Origin: a virus
IMG/VR virus record: IMGVR_UViG_3300025890_002947
Location: 1-27,773 of that record
Reading direction: 5' to 3' (one strand)
Length of the DNA: 27,773 bases
Shown: positions 1 to 27,078 of the stretch, piece after piece
Position numbering within the stretch: position 1 is the stretch's first letter
How the letters are laid out: the number at the start of each line of letters is the position of its first letter
Notes under the pieces: model-generated
What the model saw: the letters and a program-made list of their open reading frames with translations, nothing else
Database searches by the model: none
Told to the model about the DNA's origin: nothing
Made by a program: the position numbers and the translations under genes

Positions 1-1190
1 TCCCCAAATCCGAACACGAAGTCCGCCTGCATGCCAGCAAACAGCAGTTCCGCCTTCTCTTCGATCCACAGCGAGACCATGTCCAACCGGTGAATGGAGG
101 CGAAATTCAAAATAGGCAGCGGCGACTTTGCCGTCGCGAGGTTCATCTCCACAACCACAGGAGGGTCGTTGTTCGCGGGGTCTGTGGAGCGCTTGAAATG
201 CGCGATGGTGCATGCTGCCGAGAGCTCGTACGTTTTTACCATGTGATCAGCAACCGTCTGTTGTCCGTCTCCACCTTCGAGCGATACCAGGATGTACTTT
301 GATTGCGTGTCCTTGGTAGCCGCACTCTTCCAATAGTGTTCATACAATTTGCAGCTGGGCTTGCCGTTGAACATTCCAACCACGATCGACGAGTCCGACA
401 GGACAAGCATTTCGAATTCCGAGACCGATTCCACCACTTCAAAAGGCGGCCCCATGTTCTTTCGCACCCACTTTTCCAACGATAGCGCGTCTCGAGCCCC
501 ATCAAAAGTGCGCGGGACATTGTCGACAAAGAATTTGATGGTTGGAAAGCCCTCGACGCCAAACGCTTCCGCAATGGTTTCGTCCCGGGTTGCATCGACC
601 TTCGCAAACACAACGTCTTCTCCTTTCATTGCAGTGGCGGCTTTCGCAAACTCTGGTTTCAAAGCTTTGCAGTGACCACACCACGGTGCGTAAAACTGCA
701 CAAAAACAAACGGACGATCTGTCAAAGTATGCTCTAGCGTTGCTTTACTCAGTTCCAACACGTCAGATTCGTCCACAGGCTCCTCAGCTTCTTCGTCGGG
801 TTCATCCTCAATCGACTGGGTGGCCCCCTCTTCTTCCTCGCTCACGACAGGCTCTTCGTAGCCTTCGACTTTCACCATGACTTCTTCCGATAGTGTCAGG
901 CCGCTCACTCGGTCACGCAAAAAGGCAACAAGCCCAATCAGTGTTCGGTTGCCTTCAATCGGCACTGGCTTTACTCCAGGCGAAAACAAGTACAGGGTGG
1001 GGAAGCCCTGGACTTGCACCCCGTCGTGGCTGGGGACATCGTTTGCTGTGGCGTCCAGCTTGGCCACGAGGACGGGGGAGTCTCCGTCCGAGGCCAATAT
1101 AGATGCCAGATACTCGAGTGTGGGCAACAATTTTTTGCAATGGCCGCACCACGGTGCATAAAACTCGACCAAAACGTGCTTTCCATCTTT
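1..1190 (-). CDS. Eukaryote-type protein disulfide isomerase fragment (partial, chimeric)
   Basis: Seen: an open minus-strand frame runs off the left edge without a stop. It encodes two thioredoxin domains, each with the [10 protein letters not shown] active site (coded near 1141-1164 and 670-690), separated by a Glu/Asp-rich linker (about 740-850) and followed by a b-type thioredoxin-fold region without a CxxC. Known: two APWCGHC domains with an acidic linker are typical of eukaryotic ER protein disulfide isomerases, which oxidise and isomerise disulfides. The DNA is clearly GC-richer than the phage genes to the right. There is no own start codon: the frame is fused to the phage helicase at the shared peptide KDGKHV (1173-1190). 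Inference: a fragment from a microalga or protist joined by mis-assembly. A true fusion is possible but unlikely. The PDI identity is secure; the physical linkage is not. Confidence 0.85.
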
Positions 1191-14760: not shown

Positions 14761-14964
14761 TCACTGGTTATGACTCCTATCTGTCTGTTGCTTTATTACC
14801 TCTTTTAAAGTGCCAGAATCTTTTTCTTCTGTTTCTTTTTCTGCAGCATCTTTCTGCCAAGCACTGATTTGTGCTCTTAATTGTAAATTTTCTTGATATA
14901 ACTGACTGACTCTAGATGCTAATACTAACATATACTCTTCTTTAACTTGATCTTCTGTTATCAT
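14761..14964 (-). CDS. Small coiled-coil protein next to lysozyme
   Basis: A 67-residue soluble protein: a helix with heptad spacing (ASRVSQLYQENLQLRAQISA, about 17-36), then a Lys/Glu-rich segment and a polar tail. The ATG overlaps the lysozyme stop (ATGA), so translation is coupled. A lysis accessory role is possible, but there is no membrane anchor or lipobox to support a spanin. Confidence 0.55.
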   Translation of the reverse strand: MITEDQVKEEYMLVLASRVSQLYQENLQLRAQISAWQKDAAEKETEEKDSGTLKEVIKQQTDRSHNQ

Positions 14965-15416
14965 TCGACCTCCTCTAGTCGTGACATTAGTCTTTCGGCT
15001 CGATTAGTTACTTGATTGTACCAACGAGAATCTCTTCCTTCTTTTGCCGCTTCTTTCCAGTTCTGTCCATGAATTGCTTGATTAAACTTTACAAACTTAC
15101 CAAGACGAGGTCTTCCAAGATTGAACATCATGTTGATAAGAATCTCTTGCACTTCTCCAGGCAGGTGATGAAATATTCCAGCACCATACAGATGATAGCA
15201 CTCACGGATCATTGTTTCAAAATCCTCATCAAAAGCTGTGTCTATTCTTATTTGAGATATAGGAGTTCCTACTGGCTCTCCATATTCCGGGTCTGTTTTT
15301 GTGATTAGATGCCCTACACCAAAGGTAGGGTATCCAAGATGATCGACATAAATGGAGTGTTCTACTCCTTCATCTATGTAAAGTTGTTCTCTTACTCTTT
15401 TTATATCGAAATTCAT
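14961..15416 (-). CDS. Endolysin, T4-type lysozyme (GH24)
   Basis: Muramidase of 151 residues that cleaves peptidoglycan at the end of infection. Seen: the T4 lysozyme catalytic triad in YIDEGVEHSIYVDHLGYPTFGVGHL: E16 (T4 Glu11), D25 (T4 Asp20) and T31 (T4 Thr26), then the GHL motif; the C-terminal lobe contains WKEAAKEGRDSRWYNQVTNRA, very close to T4 SRWYNQTPNRA. There is no signal peptide, so it needs the holin encoded by the next gene upstream. ATGA overlaps link it to both neighbours. Confidence 0.93.
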   Translation of the reverse strand: MNFDIKRVREQLYIDEGVEHSIYVDHLGYPTFGVGHLITKTDPEYGEPVGTPISQIRIDTAFDEDFETMIRECYHLYGAGIFHHLPGEVQEILINMMFNLGRPRLGKFVKFNQAIHGQNWKEAAKEGRDSRWYNQVTNRAERLMSRLEEVE

Positions 15417-15775
15417 TTTTTACCCATAAACCCTACTGCTGCACGAACACCAAAAGAAGCTGCTACAATCACTGAGAGTGTATACTGATACCAGGCTGGC
15501 ATCTCTTCTAATGCTTGGAATCCTGCATGAACGTAATCTACTGTTTGAGGAAAGAAGCATAGTATCATTGGGATACTAAATAATAGTGTTAGCCATTCAT
15601 CTTTCCAAGAAGAGCCAGAGTTAGAAGCCATAATAGACTCCCAGTCTGCCTTGCTTTGTGCTGCTGTTACCATGACTTGAGCTTCGGCTTCAGACTTTGC
15701 TTTCATCTTCGCATTCTTGCCTTCTAGCCAAGTCTGTCCTAACCCCGCTACAGAGCTAAATATACTTCCTATCAT
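15413..15775 (-). CDS. Holin-like membrane protein
   Basis: A 120-residue protein with an amphipathic, Ala/Lys-rich N-terminal half (MIGSIFSSVAGLGQTW, then KAKSEAEAQVMVTAAQSKAD) and two hydrophobic segments (EWLTLLFSIPMILCFFPQTV, about 68-87; YQYTLSVIVAASFGVRAAVG, about 96-115), ending in Lys-Lys. The WKDEWLTLLFSIP segment is typical of proteins annotated as phage holins, though the family is defined loosely. Adjacency to the lysozyme with an ATGA overlap supports the role. Confidence 0.75.
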   Translation of the reverse strand: MIGSIFSSVAGLGQTWLEGKNAKMKAKSEAEAQVMVTAAQSKADWESIMASNSGSSWKDEWLTLLFSIPMILCFFPQTVDYVHAGFQALEEMPAWYQYTLSVIVAASFGVRAAVGFMGKK

Positions 15776-15922: not shown

Positions 15923-16005
15923 TTTTTCCTAGATATATAGAGTGTTATGGCAAAGCCTAAATAACACATAGATAAAATAAAGAAAGAACCTACAAGTTCT
16001 TCCAT
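15919..16005 (-). CDS. Tiny single-helix membrane protein (28 aa)
   Basis: The 28-residue product begins MEELVGSFFILSMCYLGFAI and ends YISRKK: one transmembrane helix with a basic C-terminus, presumably cytoplasmic by the positive-inside rule. The ATG at 16005 lies inside the last codons of the copper-monooxygenase gene (overlap 16 bases) and the stop overlaps the next ATG. Such coupling on both sides suggests a real gene. Function unknown; lysis timing or a partner of the exported proteins are possibilities. Confidence 0.5.
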   Translation of the reverse strand: MEELVGSFFILSMCYLGFAITLYISRKK

Positions 16006-17246
16006 GTAAATGCCCCAAAGAACATTTCATCTTCTGACATCTGTCCCCAAGGCACACTTCTGCTTGGATCAGGATTCATTAGATTCTCTGCTGAATTATC
16101 AAAAACTCCTTCTACATGAAGTACTGTACCCGCAGGTATATACTTCGGCTCTCTCCATGTATATGATAACTGCCAAGCATACTCATAGCGTGGAATATCA
16201 ATTAGCTCTTCCCAAGTGCCATCTTCGTAGTATGCTGTTGCTTTCATACTCTTGCCACGAAAGTGCATATGAGGCAAGAAAGTATGCAGCATTATATCAT
16301 CTTGTAAAACAATTTCAGCTTCCTGCACAAAATTAGGATCATATGGAGGAATGTTTGTCCATGTATCTGGGAAGATACAAGCACAGTCACCTGCCATTCT
16401 TTCCTCTGGTACTACTCCTTCATTATGAAAGTATAGTCCAATTCGTGCTTTGTCTGTTCTTGCAGTACCATCAGGAGTGTAGTGCAGTTGTAGATTTACA
16501 ACTGAACCTGCACGTAACAATCCACCAGTATTTTCATCGTAGAAGTCAGGAGTACCGCCTGGAACATATGCACTGATTTGTGCATAGTCCATGTTTCCCT
16601 GTCCTTCACCTGATACACCAAGTAGATTCATGTTACGTTCACCCGGCAAAGAAACAGTATTCAACATATGATGCATTACAGTTGGCTCGGAGGGTAAAAA
16701 TTCTGAACCCCGTAGCCATTTGTCTTCTGTTAATCCCAAAGCTACACTTGTGTAGCGATAAGGAATTGCATTCGGGCCAAGAGTTCCTACTGCTGGAATT
16801 TCTTGAGCAGGCACTTCAATAATCATATCAGGCTCGCCATGTACCCACTCTGAAGTAGAGTAAACTGTCTCTAACAGAGGGTCACGGATCTCCCCGCGAG
16901 ATATTTCAAAAGGTACTTGTGAGCCTGCGTTAATCCATTCAACAATAGTCTCCATTTCTGTATGACTTAATGTTCTGTGATTAATGATACGATCAGCGTA
17001 TTTGCGATCAATCTGGCCGGGCGGCATCTGTAGTGTTGTAACTGCTTCTTTAATTGCAGGTGCAAATGCTTGTAACATTCTGTAGTCAGTCATTGCCCAT
17101 GGTGCAATACCTCCTTCGCGGTGACAGCTTTGACACTGCTCTACAAATATTGGTGCTACATTTTCTGCGTAGTCTATAGCAACATCATCATGTGCATATG
17201 CAGCAGATGTAAATAGACTACTGGCTAGCAATACTAATTTTTTCAT
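15990..17246 (-). CDS. Exported c-type cytochrome/PHM-like copper monooxygenase (copy 2)
   Basis: A 418-residue secreted protein. Seen: signal peptide MKKLVLLASSLFTSAAYAHD; one haem c motif CQSCH (C38, C41, H42) in a small cytochrome domain (about 20-110); then a copper type II, ascorbate-dependent monooxygenase-like domain. Its candidate copper ligands are all visible: HH in TVMHHMLN, H in LQLHYTPDG, HMH in FLPHMHFRGK and M in SEDEMFFGAF. The stretch IDIPRYEYAWQLSYTWREPK and DNSAENLMNPDPSRSVPWG match bacterial proteins of this fusion type. Known: PHM enzymes hydroxylate using two copper sites; the substrate of bacterial fusions is unknown. Start ATG 17246 follows GGAGGAAAG; it overlaps copy 1 by 29 bases. 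Confidence 0.85.
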   Translation of the reverse strand: MKKLVLLASSLFTSAAYAHDDVAIDYAENVAPIFVEQCQSCHREGGIAPWAMTDYRMLQAFAPAIKEAVTTLQMPPGQIDRKYADRIINHRTLSHTEMETIVEWINAGSQVPFEISRGEIRDPLLETVYSTSEWVHGEPDMIIEVPAQEIPAVGTLGPNAIPYRYTSVALGLTEDKWLRGSEFLPSEPTVMHHMLNTVSLPGERNMNLLGVSGEGQGNMDYAQISAYVPGGTPDFYDENTGGLLRAGSVVNLQLHYTPDGTARTDKARIGLYFHNEGVVPEERMAGDCACIFPDTWTNIPPYDPNFVQEAEIVLQDDIMLHTFLPHMHFRGKSMKATAYYEDGTWEELIDIPRYEYAWQLSYTWREPKYIPAGTVLHVEGVFDNSAENLMNPDPSRSVPWGQMSEDEMFFGAFTWKNL

Positions 17247-18528
17247 TTCTTTCCTCCAATATTGCGTCATATCCTTCATCATCTAAATGAGTAATAGCTA
17301 TCCACGCGTGAGACATCTCGTCACCCGTTCTACTGCCATCCACTACCCACATATCAGGATCAGGATTGTTAAGATTATCGACAGTATTGTCATACCACTG
17401 CTTGATTACTAATACAGCACCTGTTGGAACAAGAGGTGCTACATCTTCTGCGTATATATGACTGTGATGCCATGTTGCTGACCAATTTGAAATCTGACTT
17501 ATAGATTCTGTACGTCCTGTCTCAGGATAATAAATCTCTAAACTAGCTGCGTTCATACGCAAATGACCGTGTGGTTGAAAACTATCAATACGGACAGGAT
17601 GGTCAAAGCTATGAAAGCCTTGAGTCATTGCATAACCATGAGGAGGAATAATTAAATGTCCATTCTCATAGCCTTCTCGTAAAGGGTACAAACGAAGATC
17701 TTGATTATAGGTATTCTCTTCGTATCCTTCATCATGAAACCAAAGACCGATCTCTACTACGTTGTCTTCAATCATCTGGCCTTCGGCTGTTGCTCCAACT
17801 CCACCCGGAAACATATGAATGTCCCATCGTACTAAGGAATTTGCAGGCATTGTACGGCATACACCTTTCGGCATTACTTCGCCCCACTTACCCATTGCAT
17901 ACTCGGTTAGCTGTCCATGTGGTACTAACTCACCTTCTTCATCGTACATATATACGTCAGAGTTAGCATGGTGCACTACTGCTGCTGCATCTCCCCGAGG
18001 CTTTACTTGGACAGCTTTGATACATCTACTTTCTGTCAAACCTGGGTCTACGAATTCCTTACTCCATAAGTCATTTCCTTTTGCAGGAATATCATATGCT
18101 TGGGAAGGAACAATTAAATCTGGTTGTCCAAACATAGCTGCAAAACGCCAATCATCTGGATTTGGCATTTCAGGCATTTGAGGAGTAATGTCGGCTTCTC
18201 CATAGGGAGACCCCGCATTGACCCATGCTACAATTGAATCTATATCTTCCTGTTTAAGTCGCCAATCACCTTCGAGGTCTTGTATGCCAATATGCTGATC
18301 ATAAGCATATGGTGGCATTTCTCGACTGGCTACTTTATAGGAAATGAGAGGTGCCCAGGGTCGAAGCTGCTCATAGCTTTCAAAACTCATCGGGCCTATA
18401 CCACCAATACGGTGGCAAGTTACACAGTTATTATTGATAATGTTAGCAATTCCATTTGTGTAAGTGGCTTCATCTGCAGAAGCCTGTGTGGACAAGGCTA
18501 TTGCTGCTGCTATCGCTAGTTTTTTCAT
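17218..18528 (-). CDS. Exported c-type cytochrome/PHM-like copper monooxygenase (copy 1)
   Basis: A 436-residue paralogue of the next gene, with the same order. Seen: signal peptide MKKLAIAAAIALSTQASA; haem c motif CVTCH (C35, C38, H39); the GIGPMSFESYEQLRPWAP segment; then the copper domain with HH in VVHHANSD, H in WDIHMFPGG, HGH in FQPHGHLRMN and M in GDEMSHAW. WYDNTVDNLNNPDPDMWV matches the DNS-x-NxxNPDP block of copy 2. The two differ greatly outside these motifs, so the duplication is old or they arrived as a pair. The product should be periplasmic and needs the host Sec system, haem lyase and copper. ATG 18528 follows AGAGAAG; a terminator-like hairpin lies just upstream. Confidence 0.85.
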   Translation of the reverse strand: MKKLAIAAAIALSTQASADEATYTNGIANIINNNCVTCHRIGGIGPMSFESYEQLRPWAPLISYKVASREMPPYAYDQHIGIQDLEGDWRLKQEDIDSIVAWVNAGSPYGEADITPQMPEMPNPDDWRFAAMFGQPDLIVPSQAYDIPAKGNDLWSKEFVDPGLTESRCIKAVQVKPRGDAAAVVHHANSDVYMYDEEGELVPHGQLTEYAMGKWGEVMPKGVCRTMPANSLVRWDIHMFPGGVGATAEGQMIEDNVVEIGLWFHDEGYEENTYNQDLRLYPLREGYENGHLIIPPHGYAMTQGFHSFDHPVRIDSFQPHGHLRMNAASLEIYYPETGRTESISQISNWSATWHHSHIYAEDVAPLVPTGAVLVIKQWYDNTVDNLNNPDPDMWVVDGSRTGDEMSHAWIAITHLDDEGYDAILEERNEKISIASQ

Positions 18529-18705: not shown

Positions 18706-19116
18706 CTAGTCAATACTAATGGTTACGGGGCGTTCCTCTTCAGGTAATTCTTGCTGCAAGGAAATACAAAGCAATCCGCGGTCCATGTAGGCTTTTTCTA
18801 ATGTAATATAATCCCCTACTTTGAACTGGCGGCTAAAACATTTACCACTTAATCCTTTGTAAAGGTATTCCTCATCTGAACTTTCTGTCTGCTTTGTAGT
18901 GCCTTTCACGCTGAGTACGTTTTTATGTAGCGAGATCTCAACATCCTCTTTAAGCCATCCAGGTATTGCAAGCTCAACACGATACCCGGTTTCGCCTACC
19001 TTTACGATGTTATAACGAGGATAACCTCCATCTATTGTACTCGCAGAGAAGTCATTTTCTAAGCGGTCAAACCCAACAAAAAATTTATTAAAGTCTGCCA
19101 TAGACAATCTAGTCAT
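18706..19116 (-). CDS. hsp20: Small heat-shock protein (Hsp20/alpha-crystallin)
   Basis: ATP-independent holdase of 136 residues. Seen: N-terminal MADFNKFFVGFDRL (IbpA-like start), an alpha-crystallin domain (about 33-125) with YNIVKVGETGYRVELAIPGW, EDVEISLHKNVLSVKG and a beta-rich middle, and a C-terminal ISI element that fits the I-x-I anchor of the family. Hsp20 genes are frequent in marine phages and may protect phage proteins during assembly. The ATG at 19116 follows AAGGAG. It lies in one transcript with the small genes upstream (promoter 19538-19566). Confidence 0.92.
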   Translation of the reverse strand: MTRLSMADFNKFFVGFDRLENDFSASTIDGGYPRYNIVKVGETGYRVELAIPGWLKEDVEISLHKNVLSVKGTTKQTESSDEEYLYKGLSGKCFSRQFKVGDYITLEKAYMDRGLLCISLQQELPEEERPVTISID

Positions 19117-19647: not shown

Positions 19648-19818
19648 ATGAGAAAAACATGGACAGATAAAGAAAGACAAATTTTGAAGGACTATTACGG
19701 AAAGATTTCGCTTGTAGACTTACAGGCGAAGCTGCCCAATAGAAATCCTAATCAAATTTATAAACAAGTATCCTATCTGAGAAAAAGAGGGTGGACTTTT
19801 GGCACACTACTTATTTGA
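19648..19818 (+). CDS. Small Myb/SANT-like HTH protein, leaderless
   Basis: A 56-residue protein beginning MRKTWTDKERQILKDYYGKI. It forms one HTH unit: helix 1 TDKERQILKDYYGK, helix 2 SLVDLQAKLPN, recognition helix NPNQIYKQVSYLRKRGW. The pattern (W-T-x-x-E at the start, then a helix ending in K-R-G-W) matches the units of the 7845-8570 array protein. There is no ribosome-binding site; the mRNA is predicted to start at the ATG. As first gene of the plus-strand operon, beside divergent promoters, it is a candidate regulator of both arms. Confidence 0.7.
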   Translation: MRKTWTDKERQILKDYYGKISLVDLQAKLPNRNPNQIYKQVSYLRKRGWTFGTLLI

Positions 19819-20368
19819 AAAACCTTTTCCGGCAAGAAAACTATTATCAGAACACTACATACGAATACTACAAAAGTTTTACAAAGATAAAATAGAAACT
19901 GATATCGGTGAAGGGTACAATACACATTACAGTGACAAAAACTTTGAGTATGAAATTGCACAAAAATTCATTGAAGTAGTAAAAGAAACTTTCGTATTCG
20001 ATGAAAATATAATTTGTGAAAAGAATGGATACTTAGGCACTCAAGCATTTGGTAAATTTTATCCAATAAAGTCTTGGGTGTATTGTCAAAACTATAAGTA
20101 CTCTACTTCTGCATGGCATAGTCATATAAATACTTCGACTATAAATGCAGTTTTGTATCACAATATGCCCAAAGCTGGAGGAGAGTTGTGCTTTGATATT
20201 TTCGGAGATAAATTCGAAATAACTCCGAAAGAAGGACACATCTATATTTTTCCTTATTGGGCCTACCATGCTCCAATGCCTCAAGATGATGACTCATGGA
20301 GAGTATGTGTAAACTTAGAACTTATGACTGAACAACGACCTTTAACAAAGTCAGGTATATTATGGTAA
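19799..20368 (+). CDS. Putative 2OG-Fe(II) oxygenase-like protein
   Basis: A 189-residue protein with a double-stranded beta-helix signature: SAWHSHINTSTINAVLYHNM, GGELCFDIFGDKFEITPKEG, HIYIFPYWAYHAPMPQ and SWRVCVNLEL. Iron ligands would be H107, H157 and a residue near 109, and R168 would bind 2-oxoglutarate. The usual HxD is HSH here (H107, H109), so either an HxH variant or a changed activity. Known: phage oxygenases of this kind hydroxylate proteins, nucleosides or small molecules; the substrate is not predictable. Start is TTG at 19799 after AGAGGG, overlapping the HTH gene by 20 bases. Confidence 0.6.
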   Translation: MAHYLFEKPFPARKLLSEHYIRILQKFYKDKIETDIGEGYNTHYSDKNFEYEIAQKFIEVVKETFVFDENIICEKNGYLGTQAFGKFYPIKSWVYCQNYKYSTSAWHSHINTSTINAVLYHNMPKAGGELCFDIFGDKFEITPKEGHIYIFPYWAYHAPMPQDDDSWRVCVNLELMTEQRPLTKSGILW

Positions 20369-26460: not shown

Positions 26461-27078
26461 TTATTGTCCATTTTTGATTTCCTGAACCAATCGTTCCAGT
26501 AAAGTGATGCGCCCAACCCGCTTATCATTGTAATCAATTACAATCCAATCTGTGCCGATGCATTCCTCTTTTGCGAGTGTCATGCGATCAAAAGAGTCGA
26601 GCGCGAGCTTATCGTTAGCGGAAAATTTCCAGTAAACGAGAGGCGATTTTTTGCGCTTGTTCAATCTGTATTGCTGCTCGTCTTTTGAGATTGAAAGGTA
26701 AAATTTAATAACGCGCGTTCCAGATTGTTGTTCCCAATCGCAAACATTCGCTAGAAAATTTTGTGCTTGCGTTTCGCTACACCATGCATTCACGCGCTGT
26801 ACCAGTGCGCGGCTATACCATGAGCGATCAAAAAATCGAACCTGCCCTCGCTCTGGTAACCGTTTATTCCAATAGCCAAACCAATTTTTCATAGCTCGCT
26901 TGCTAGGCTTTTTTGAATGTTCAATTGAGAATAGATTCGGTGGCAGATATTTTGTGATCATTTTAATTGTGCCGCTTTTTCCTGCCGAGTCCCTGCCCTC
27001 GAAGACAATAGCGAGCGAGTCGTTATTATTCTCAACCAAACGGTTCAATTCTGCTAGTAATTTTTTCTTGCTAGGCAT
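26461..27078 (-). CDS. ppk2: Polyphosphate kinase 2 family protein
   Basis: A 205-residue P-loop kinase. Seen: Walker A FEGRDSAGKSG (26-36, K34), the RFFDRSWYSRALV stretch (81-93, D84, R85) equivalent to the PPK2 FDRSWYNR motif, LSISKDEQQYRLNKR (128-142), PLVYWKFSANDK (146-157) like the WK-x-S-x-x-D element, and DWIVIDYNDKRVGRITLLE at the end. Known: PPK2 enzymes phosphorylate nucleoside mono- or diphosphates using polyphosphate or the reverse. It is shorter than many members, lacking an N-terminal extension. ATG 27078 follows GAGG; an upstream terminator (27102-27130) separates it from 27147. Substrate and direction cannot be told from sequence. Confidence 0.88.
   Translation of the reverse strand: MPSKKKLLAELNRLVENNNDSLAIVFEGRDSAGKSGTIKMITKYLPPNLFSIEHSKKPSKRAMKNWFGYWNKRLPERGQVRFFDRSWYSRALVQRVNAWCSETQAQNFLANVCDWEQQSGTRVIKFYLSISKDEQQYRLNKRKKSPLVYWKFSANDKLALDSFDRMTLAKEECIGTDWIVIDYNDKRVGRITLLERLVQEIKNGQ

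Follow-up and report, generated by a model that had tools for sequence, protein, structure and literature searches.

Two adjacent genes, P2 and P1, each encoding a predicted fusion of a cytochrome c with a PHM/DBH-type copper monooxygenase (DBH, dopamine beta-hydroxylase), are common to unrelated tailed phages. Here they form an overlapping pair, with P2 preceding P1, on the minus strand at 15990–18528 of a 27,773-base stretch of DNA, the IMG/VR virus record IMGVR_UViG_3300025890_002947 (the window; table 1). More than 100 IMG/VR stretches, from T4-like, T5-like and other tailed phages, encode an enzyme of this type. The pair probably represents a mobile, phage-carried auxiliary haem–copper hydroxylase module that is at work in the periplasm of the host; judged from the sequences, infection with a phage carrying it would probably change oxidation chemistry outside the host inner membrane.

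Table 1. Features of the P2–P1 locus (window positions).
Feature	Position	Strand	Description or basis
P1	15990..17246	-	418 aa; exported cytochrome c + PHM/DBH-type copper monooxygenase (predicted)
P2	17218..18528	-	436 aa; P1 paralogue, exported cytochrome c + copper monooxygenase (predicted)
P2/P1 overlap, 29 nt	17218..17246	-	read from gene coordinates
Hsp20	18706..19116	-	upstream flank of insertion slot
Holin-like membrane protein, phrog_2524	15413..15775	-	downstream flank; holin role inferred
Phage lysozyme	14961..15416	-	downstream of pair
P1 CxxCH haem motif C38/C41/H42	17121..17135	-	alignments; position by arithmetic
P1 CuH ligands H192-H193	16668..16673	-	viral alignment, DBH profile alignment
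P1 third CuH ligand H255	16482..16484	-	viral alignment, DBH profile alignment
P1 CuM ligands H326-x-H328	16263..16271	-	viral alignment, DBH profile alignment
P1 CuM methionine M408	16023..16025	-	viral alignment, structure match
P2 CxxCH haem motif C35/C38/H39	18412..18426	-	alignments; position by arithmetic
P2 CuH ligands H186-H187	17968..17973	-	viral + cellular alignments
P2 third CuH ligand H238	17815..17817	-	viral + cellular alignments
P2 CuM ligands H320-x-H322	17563..17571	-	viral + cellular alignments
P2 CuM methionine M405	17314..17316	-	viral + cellular alignments

As read from their sequences, P1 and P2 each consist of a signal peptide, a CxxCH cytochrome c and a two-copper PHM/DBH domain, and the tandem fusions that the first-pass annotation had described as intact, i.e. 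with CxxCH, HH, H, HxH and M, are so in both proteins. The N-termini, read by eye, resemble signal peptides, such that both proteins are presumably exported from the cytoplasm. With CxxCH, an axial methionine retained in viral and cellular alignments (M74 in P1, M71 in P2) and the export signal, the N-terminal domain has the predicted features of a class I cytochrome c. Single sequences score below the Pfam cut-offs both for cytochrome c models (E 0.0012–0.013) and, in the case of P1, for Cu2_monoox_C (PF03712; E 0.0017), which is why ordinary annotation would miss these proteins.

The assignment of the copper domain to the PHM/DBH type is far beyond chance, as judged by profile, by structural model and by an omega of ~0.1. 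When 124 viral and cellular rows were combined into a profile (A4), its top PDB match was human DBH (4zel; E 2.7e-4), with five histidine columns (HH and the third histidine of CuH, HxH of CuM) coinciding with those of 4zel; SMC3, which appeared as a PDB relative among early profile matches, was a chance match. Modelled with AlphaFold, mature P1 (pLDDT 86.8, pTM 0.83; a model built on a 13-row alignment reached pLDDT 57 and was set aside) has the two-domain fold, and PHM and DBH rank first in Foldseek (2.7e-12). In VIA comparisons its Z scores were 19.9 for DBH and mostly 16–19 for PHM, against ~9 or less for unrelated rows. By arithmetic on the match ranges, M408 of P1 corresponds to M314 of PHM, provided that the last eleven residues align without a gap. 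Sequence similarity, fold of the P1 model and the copper ligands (three histidines at CuH, two histidines and a methionine at CuM) thus all agree with membership of this family; only P1 was modelled, and P2 is assigned to the family through its homology to P1 (27–31% identity) and the same arrangement of ligands.

Among 55 viral P1 rows and 83 viral P2 rows, there is no variation at the CxxCH cysteines and histidine, at the axial methionine or at any of the six copper ligands, except for gaps in two P2 rows, in one at the haem motif and in the other at M405. The same ligands are kept in cellular P2 and in cellular P1 (at least 44% identity). Both genes are under strong purifying selection, with median dN/dS values of 0.107 (P1) and 0.084 (P2) and no pair above 0.22, after saturated pairs, more than half of all pairs, had been left out.

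That the locus might be an assembly chimera or a bacterial insert has next to no probability. Using the holin-like neighbour as bait for contigs of the window's T5-like clade and its sister clade, we found P1 upstream of this gene in all 14 site-spanning contigs of the window clade; in the sister clade, seven contigs that span the site have no P2–P1 pair, and in those that extend to Hsp20, lysozyme follows Hsp20 directly. One end of the window (1 to ~1178) is truly chimeric, but at the pair independent clade contigs share the gene order, GC is close to that of the phage and the sister clade offers a clean empty site. P1 in 14 clade contigs together with this empty site demonstrates insertion at a single slot and rules out a chimera or other assembly artefact at P2–P1. 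The pair is therefore phage-borne, as the first-pass annotation had supposed in placing it beside Hsp20 and the lysis genes; the window clade keeps this gene order in other contigs, and the viral-contig scans, in which the P2–P1 order recurs, recovered the pair from further related phages.

Within the window, P1 has a GGAGG at 17253–17257, inside P2 and just 5' of its ATG, and the 29-nt overlap recurs in at least 31 viral loci, which suggests that P1 and P2 are made in similar amounts and perhaps form a complex. A near-consensus sigma70-like promoter (11 of 12 matches, 19566–19538) lies upstream of Hsp20 and is directed into the operon; promoter-like sites in the region are barely more frequent than expected by chance (23 observed, 17.2 expected). 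This site would fit an earlier transcription of the P2–P1 operon in the T5-like genome, and late expression, which the first-pass annotation had proposed, is plausible for T4-like carriers, given the capsid neighbourhood of the pair there. The backbone of the window is probably T5-like: its PolA is 43% identical to that of T5-like phages infecting Aeromonas, Vibrio and Proteus, and its NAD-dependent ligase is split. DnaB and primase are encoded as well, whereas none of the window's genes could be recognized as one for a capsid or tail protein.

In scans of viral contigs, P1 matched 115 stretches and P2 matched 203; with the best 80 of each kept, both genes were present in 99 of 153 viral loci, and P2 precedes P1 in the pair loci that were read gene by gene. 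T4-like carriers have the pair within the head-gene cluster, with genes for head protease, scaffold and major capsid protein directly 5' of P2 and those for tail tube, UvsY and UvsW after P1. A group of myoviruses with contigs of up to 340 kb combines it with tail-sheath genes and a CsgG–FecR–curlin cassette; on the 340-kb contig (L012:2264-11979), CsgG, FecR and curlin-repeat genes stand before P2–P1 and a CHASE2/cyclase gene after it. Lineages such as that with ribonucleotide reductase and PolA, in which mostly P2 alone is found beside lysozyme (according to a rough sort by marker clusters, with some loci sharing a contig), show that the pair is not obligatory. Genes with cellular homologues thus lie among phage hallmark genes, as is characteristic of phage auxiliary metabolic genes. 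None of 50,697 INPHARED phage records encodes P1 or P2 (a relaxed search of phage records gave a single chance match inside a DNA polymerase), a plasmid search found neither gene, and the viral structure library holds no PHM/DBH-like model.

In related phages, the pair has further redox and copper proteins as neighbours. A small exported cytochrome c is encoded beside it in 22 loci, mostly between P2 and P1, both in the window's own T5-like clade (L045, L047, L073) and in T4-like phages. Some loci have P1 divided between two genes, one for an AhpC–cytochrome c protein and the other for a copper-domain protein that has a signal peptide of its own. The copper-binding chaperone CopC (Pfam 2e-15) adjoins the pair in four loci and a SOUL haem-binding protein (Pfam 4.7e-44) in two. 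None of the three is found beside the window's own pair; in the relatives, they lend independent support to a haem- and copper-dependent role in the periplasm.

Both the distribution of homologues and the trees, on which the host assignment is based, point to marine gammaproteobacteria of the Pseudohongiellaceae type as the cellular source. In the family to which Pseudohongiella sp. O18 belongs, 88 of 119 genomes have P2 matches at E <= 1e-60, as compared with 6 of 294 genomes drawn from the order, P1 occurs in 96 of the 119, and a single genome of the family can have up to 14 strong P2-type matches. Bacterial P2 (mostly 62–80% identity) is present in one to several tandem copies. Cellular P1 (~45–54% identity) is a longer protein that begins with an AhpC/TSA-like domain, and it was not observed next to P2. 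The P2 arrays are instead adjoined by a third cellular type, P1-prime (~35% identity; e.g. L184:7425-9131), which retains the haem ligands and mostly the CuH ligands and has lost the CuM HxH, the first histidine being replaced by R or K and the second by N or S; P1-prime is possibly a non-catalytic partner of P2. The bacterial neighbourhoods gave no clue to a pathway, with P1 lying outside any obvious operon. A conserved exported protein of 312–318 aa (L184:6248-7201, minus strand), without a Pfam or PDB relative, is encoded beside Pseudohongiellaceae P2 arrays, and a bin labelled Klebsiella pneumoniae (L203), probably mislabelled, contains P1-prime and P2 of the Pseudohongiellaceae type.

In trees from quick searches, with SH-aLRT as the sole support measure, the window P2 and 14 other viral rows nest within a cellular P2 clade (100% SH-aLRT). 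The labels virus and cell require at least four changes on the P2 tree, i.e. more than one transfer, and T5-like relatives with the same flanks and a P2 of a different clade indicate that the gene was swapped at one slot. Viral P1, by contrast, forms a single clade separate from cellular P1, and window-type viral P1 has lost the AhpC-like domain; the only cellular row in this clade, a 7-kb contig from a metagenome bin (L157), is probably viral itself.

How might such a module operate? In PHM and DBH, two electrons come from ascorbate, the CuH site passes electrons, and the CuM site binds O2, with hydroxylation of a C–H bond as the outcome. In P1 and P2, the fused haem domain may replace ascorbate as the reductant, in which case electrons would most naturally be drawn from the respiratory chain. 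Electrons would run from the host respiratory chain via a host cytochrome c, or in relatives the small phage cytochrome c, to the CuH site, and the CuM site would bind O2 and hydroxylate a small molecule or an envelope component; the opposite flow, from a substrate to a terminal oxidase, could also occur. P2 and P1 probably cooperate, either as a complex or on consecutive substrates. The module would supplement host paralogues and probably sustain a carbon- or energy-yielding oxidation in the infected cell; for the phage, the simplest benefit would be that an oxidation which the host itself carries out, with many paralogues, keeps going.

An auxiliary function of this kind has to be weighed against the idea that the pair serves modification of the envelope rather than metabolism, with hydroxylation of a surface or periplasmic component of the host blocking superinfection or easing lysis. 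Lysozyme and spanin genes close by in several lineages, the CsgG–FecR–curlin cassette of the one myovirus group and the distinctness of the viral P1 clade from cellular P1 would fit this idea. Yet the pair changes position between lineages, so a link to lysis is not general, it adjoins a capsid gene in T4-like carriers, and the many host paralogues of P1 and P2 are in line with core metabolism; we therefore regard envelope modification as the purpose of the pair as rather unlikely. We also see only a small chance for a related arrangement in which the virus assembles a periplasmic redox chain of its own from P2, the small cytochrome c and P1, in some cases with CopC or SOUL, and in which viral P1 would perform a chemistry unlike that of the host, e.g. 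envelope modification.

Still less probable is that the pair handles redox stress or copper, i.e. that it uses up O2 or binds copper and peroxide and thereby shields the infected periplasm, with hydroxylation being incidental. CopC and SOUL neighbours in some relatives and the AhpC/TSA-like domain of cellular P1 are compatible with such a role, but this domain has no obvious peroxidatic cysteine in the cellular P1 sequences that we read and is lost in window-type P1, and simple copper binding would not need all six PHM/DBH ligands, every one of which is kept.

Compared with known systems, the auxiliary hydroxylase module proposed here shares with PHM and DBH the two-domain beta fold and the arrangement of HH plus H (CuH) and HxH plus M (CuM), with Z scores of 17–20 for the P1 model; unlike these enzymes, to which they are ~16% identical, the phage proteins have a cytochrome c fused to the N-terminus. 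The Pseudohongiellaceae proteins have the same ligands (P2 up to 80%, P1 ~45–54% identical) and differ from the phage pair in the extra AhpC/TSA-like domain of P1 and in P2 arrays that adjoin P1-prime. Together with the trees, these identities bear out the relationship to bacterial fusions that the first-pass annotation had drawn, and the concentration of cellular homologues in one bacterial family gives good support to the auxiliary metabolic function it suggested. Since no phage PHM/DBH gene was found in the open-access literature, its remark that no phage example had been described also stands.

Phage genes for copper enzymes are already known in pmoC and amoC, to which soluble copper hydroxylases with an electron-transfer domain of their own can now be added. 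The nearest precedent are the pmoC-phages (PMC7674155), which likewise carry a host-derived component of a copper monooxygenase; according to that paper, HSP20 adjoins pmoC in six such phages, and pmoC is co-expressed with late structural genes. PmoC, however, is a membrane subunit of pMMO, whereas P1 and P2 are predicted to be complete soluble enzymes of the PHM/DBH type with their own haem domain, and in contrast to phage pmoC, P2–P1 is spread over several types of phages. The finding draws attention to a family of hosts from which few phages have been studied and, through the viruses, opens a way to test what a widespread and uncharacterized family of bacterial haem–copper proteins does.

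Some other features of the window are worth recording. At the chimeric window end (1–1178, minus strand; ~1.18 kb, far from the pair), a thioredoxin-domain protein disulfide isomerase (GC ~0.53) is fused in frame to a phage helicase, an assembly chimera in which the foreign DNA is probably eukaryotic. A putative 2OG-Fe(II) oxygenase is encoded at 19799–20368 on the plus strand, i.e. opposite to the pair, and the phage also carries a gene for polyphosphate kinase 2 (PPK2; 26461–27078, minus strand; Pfam 2e-47).
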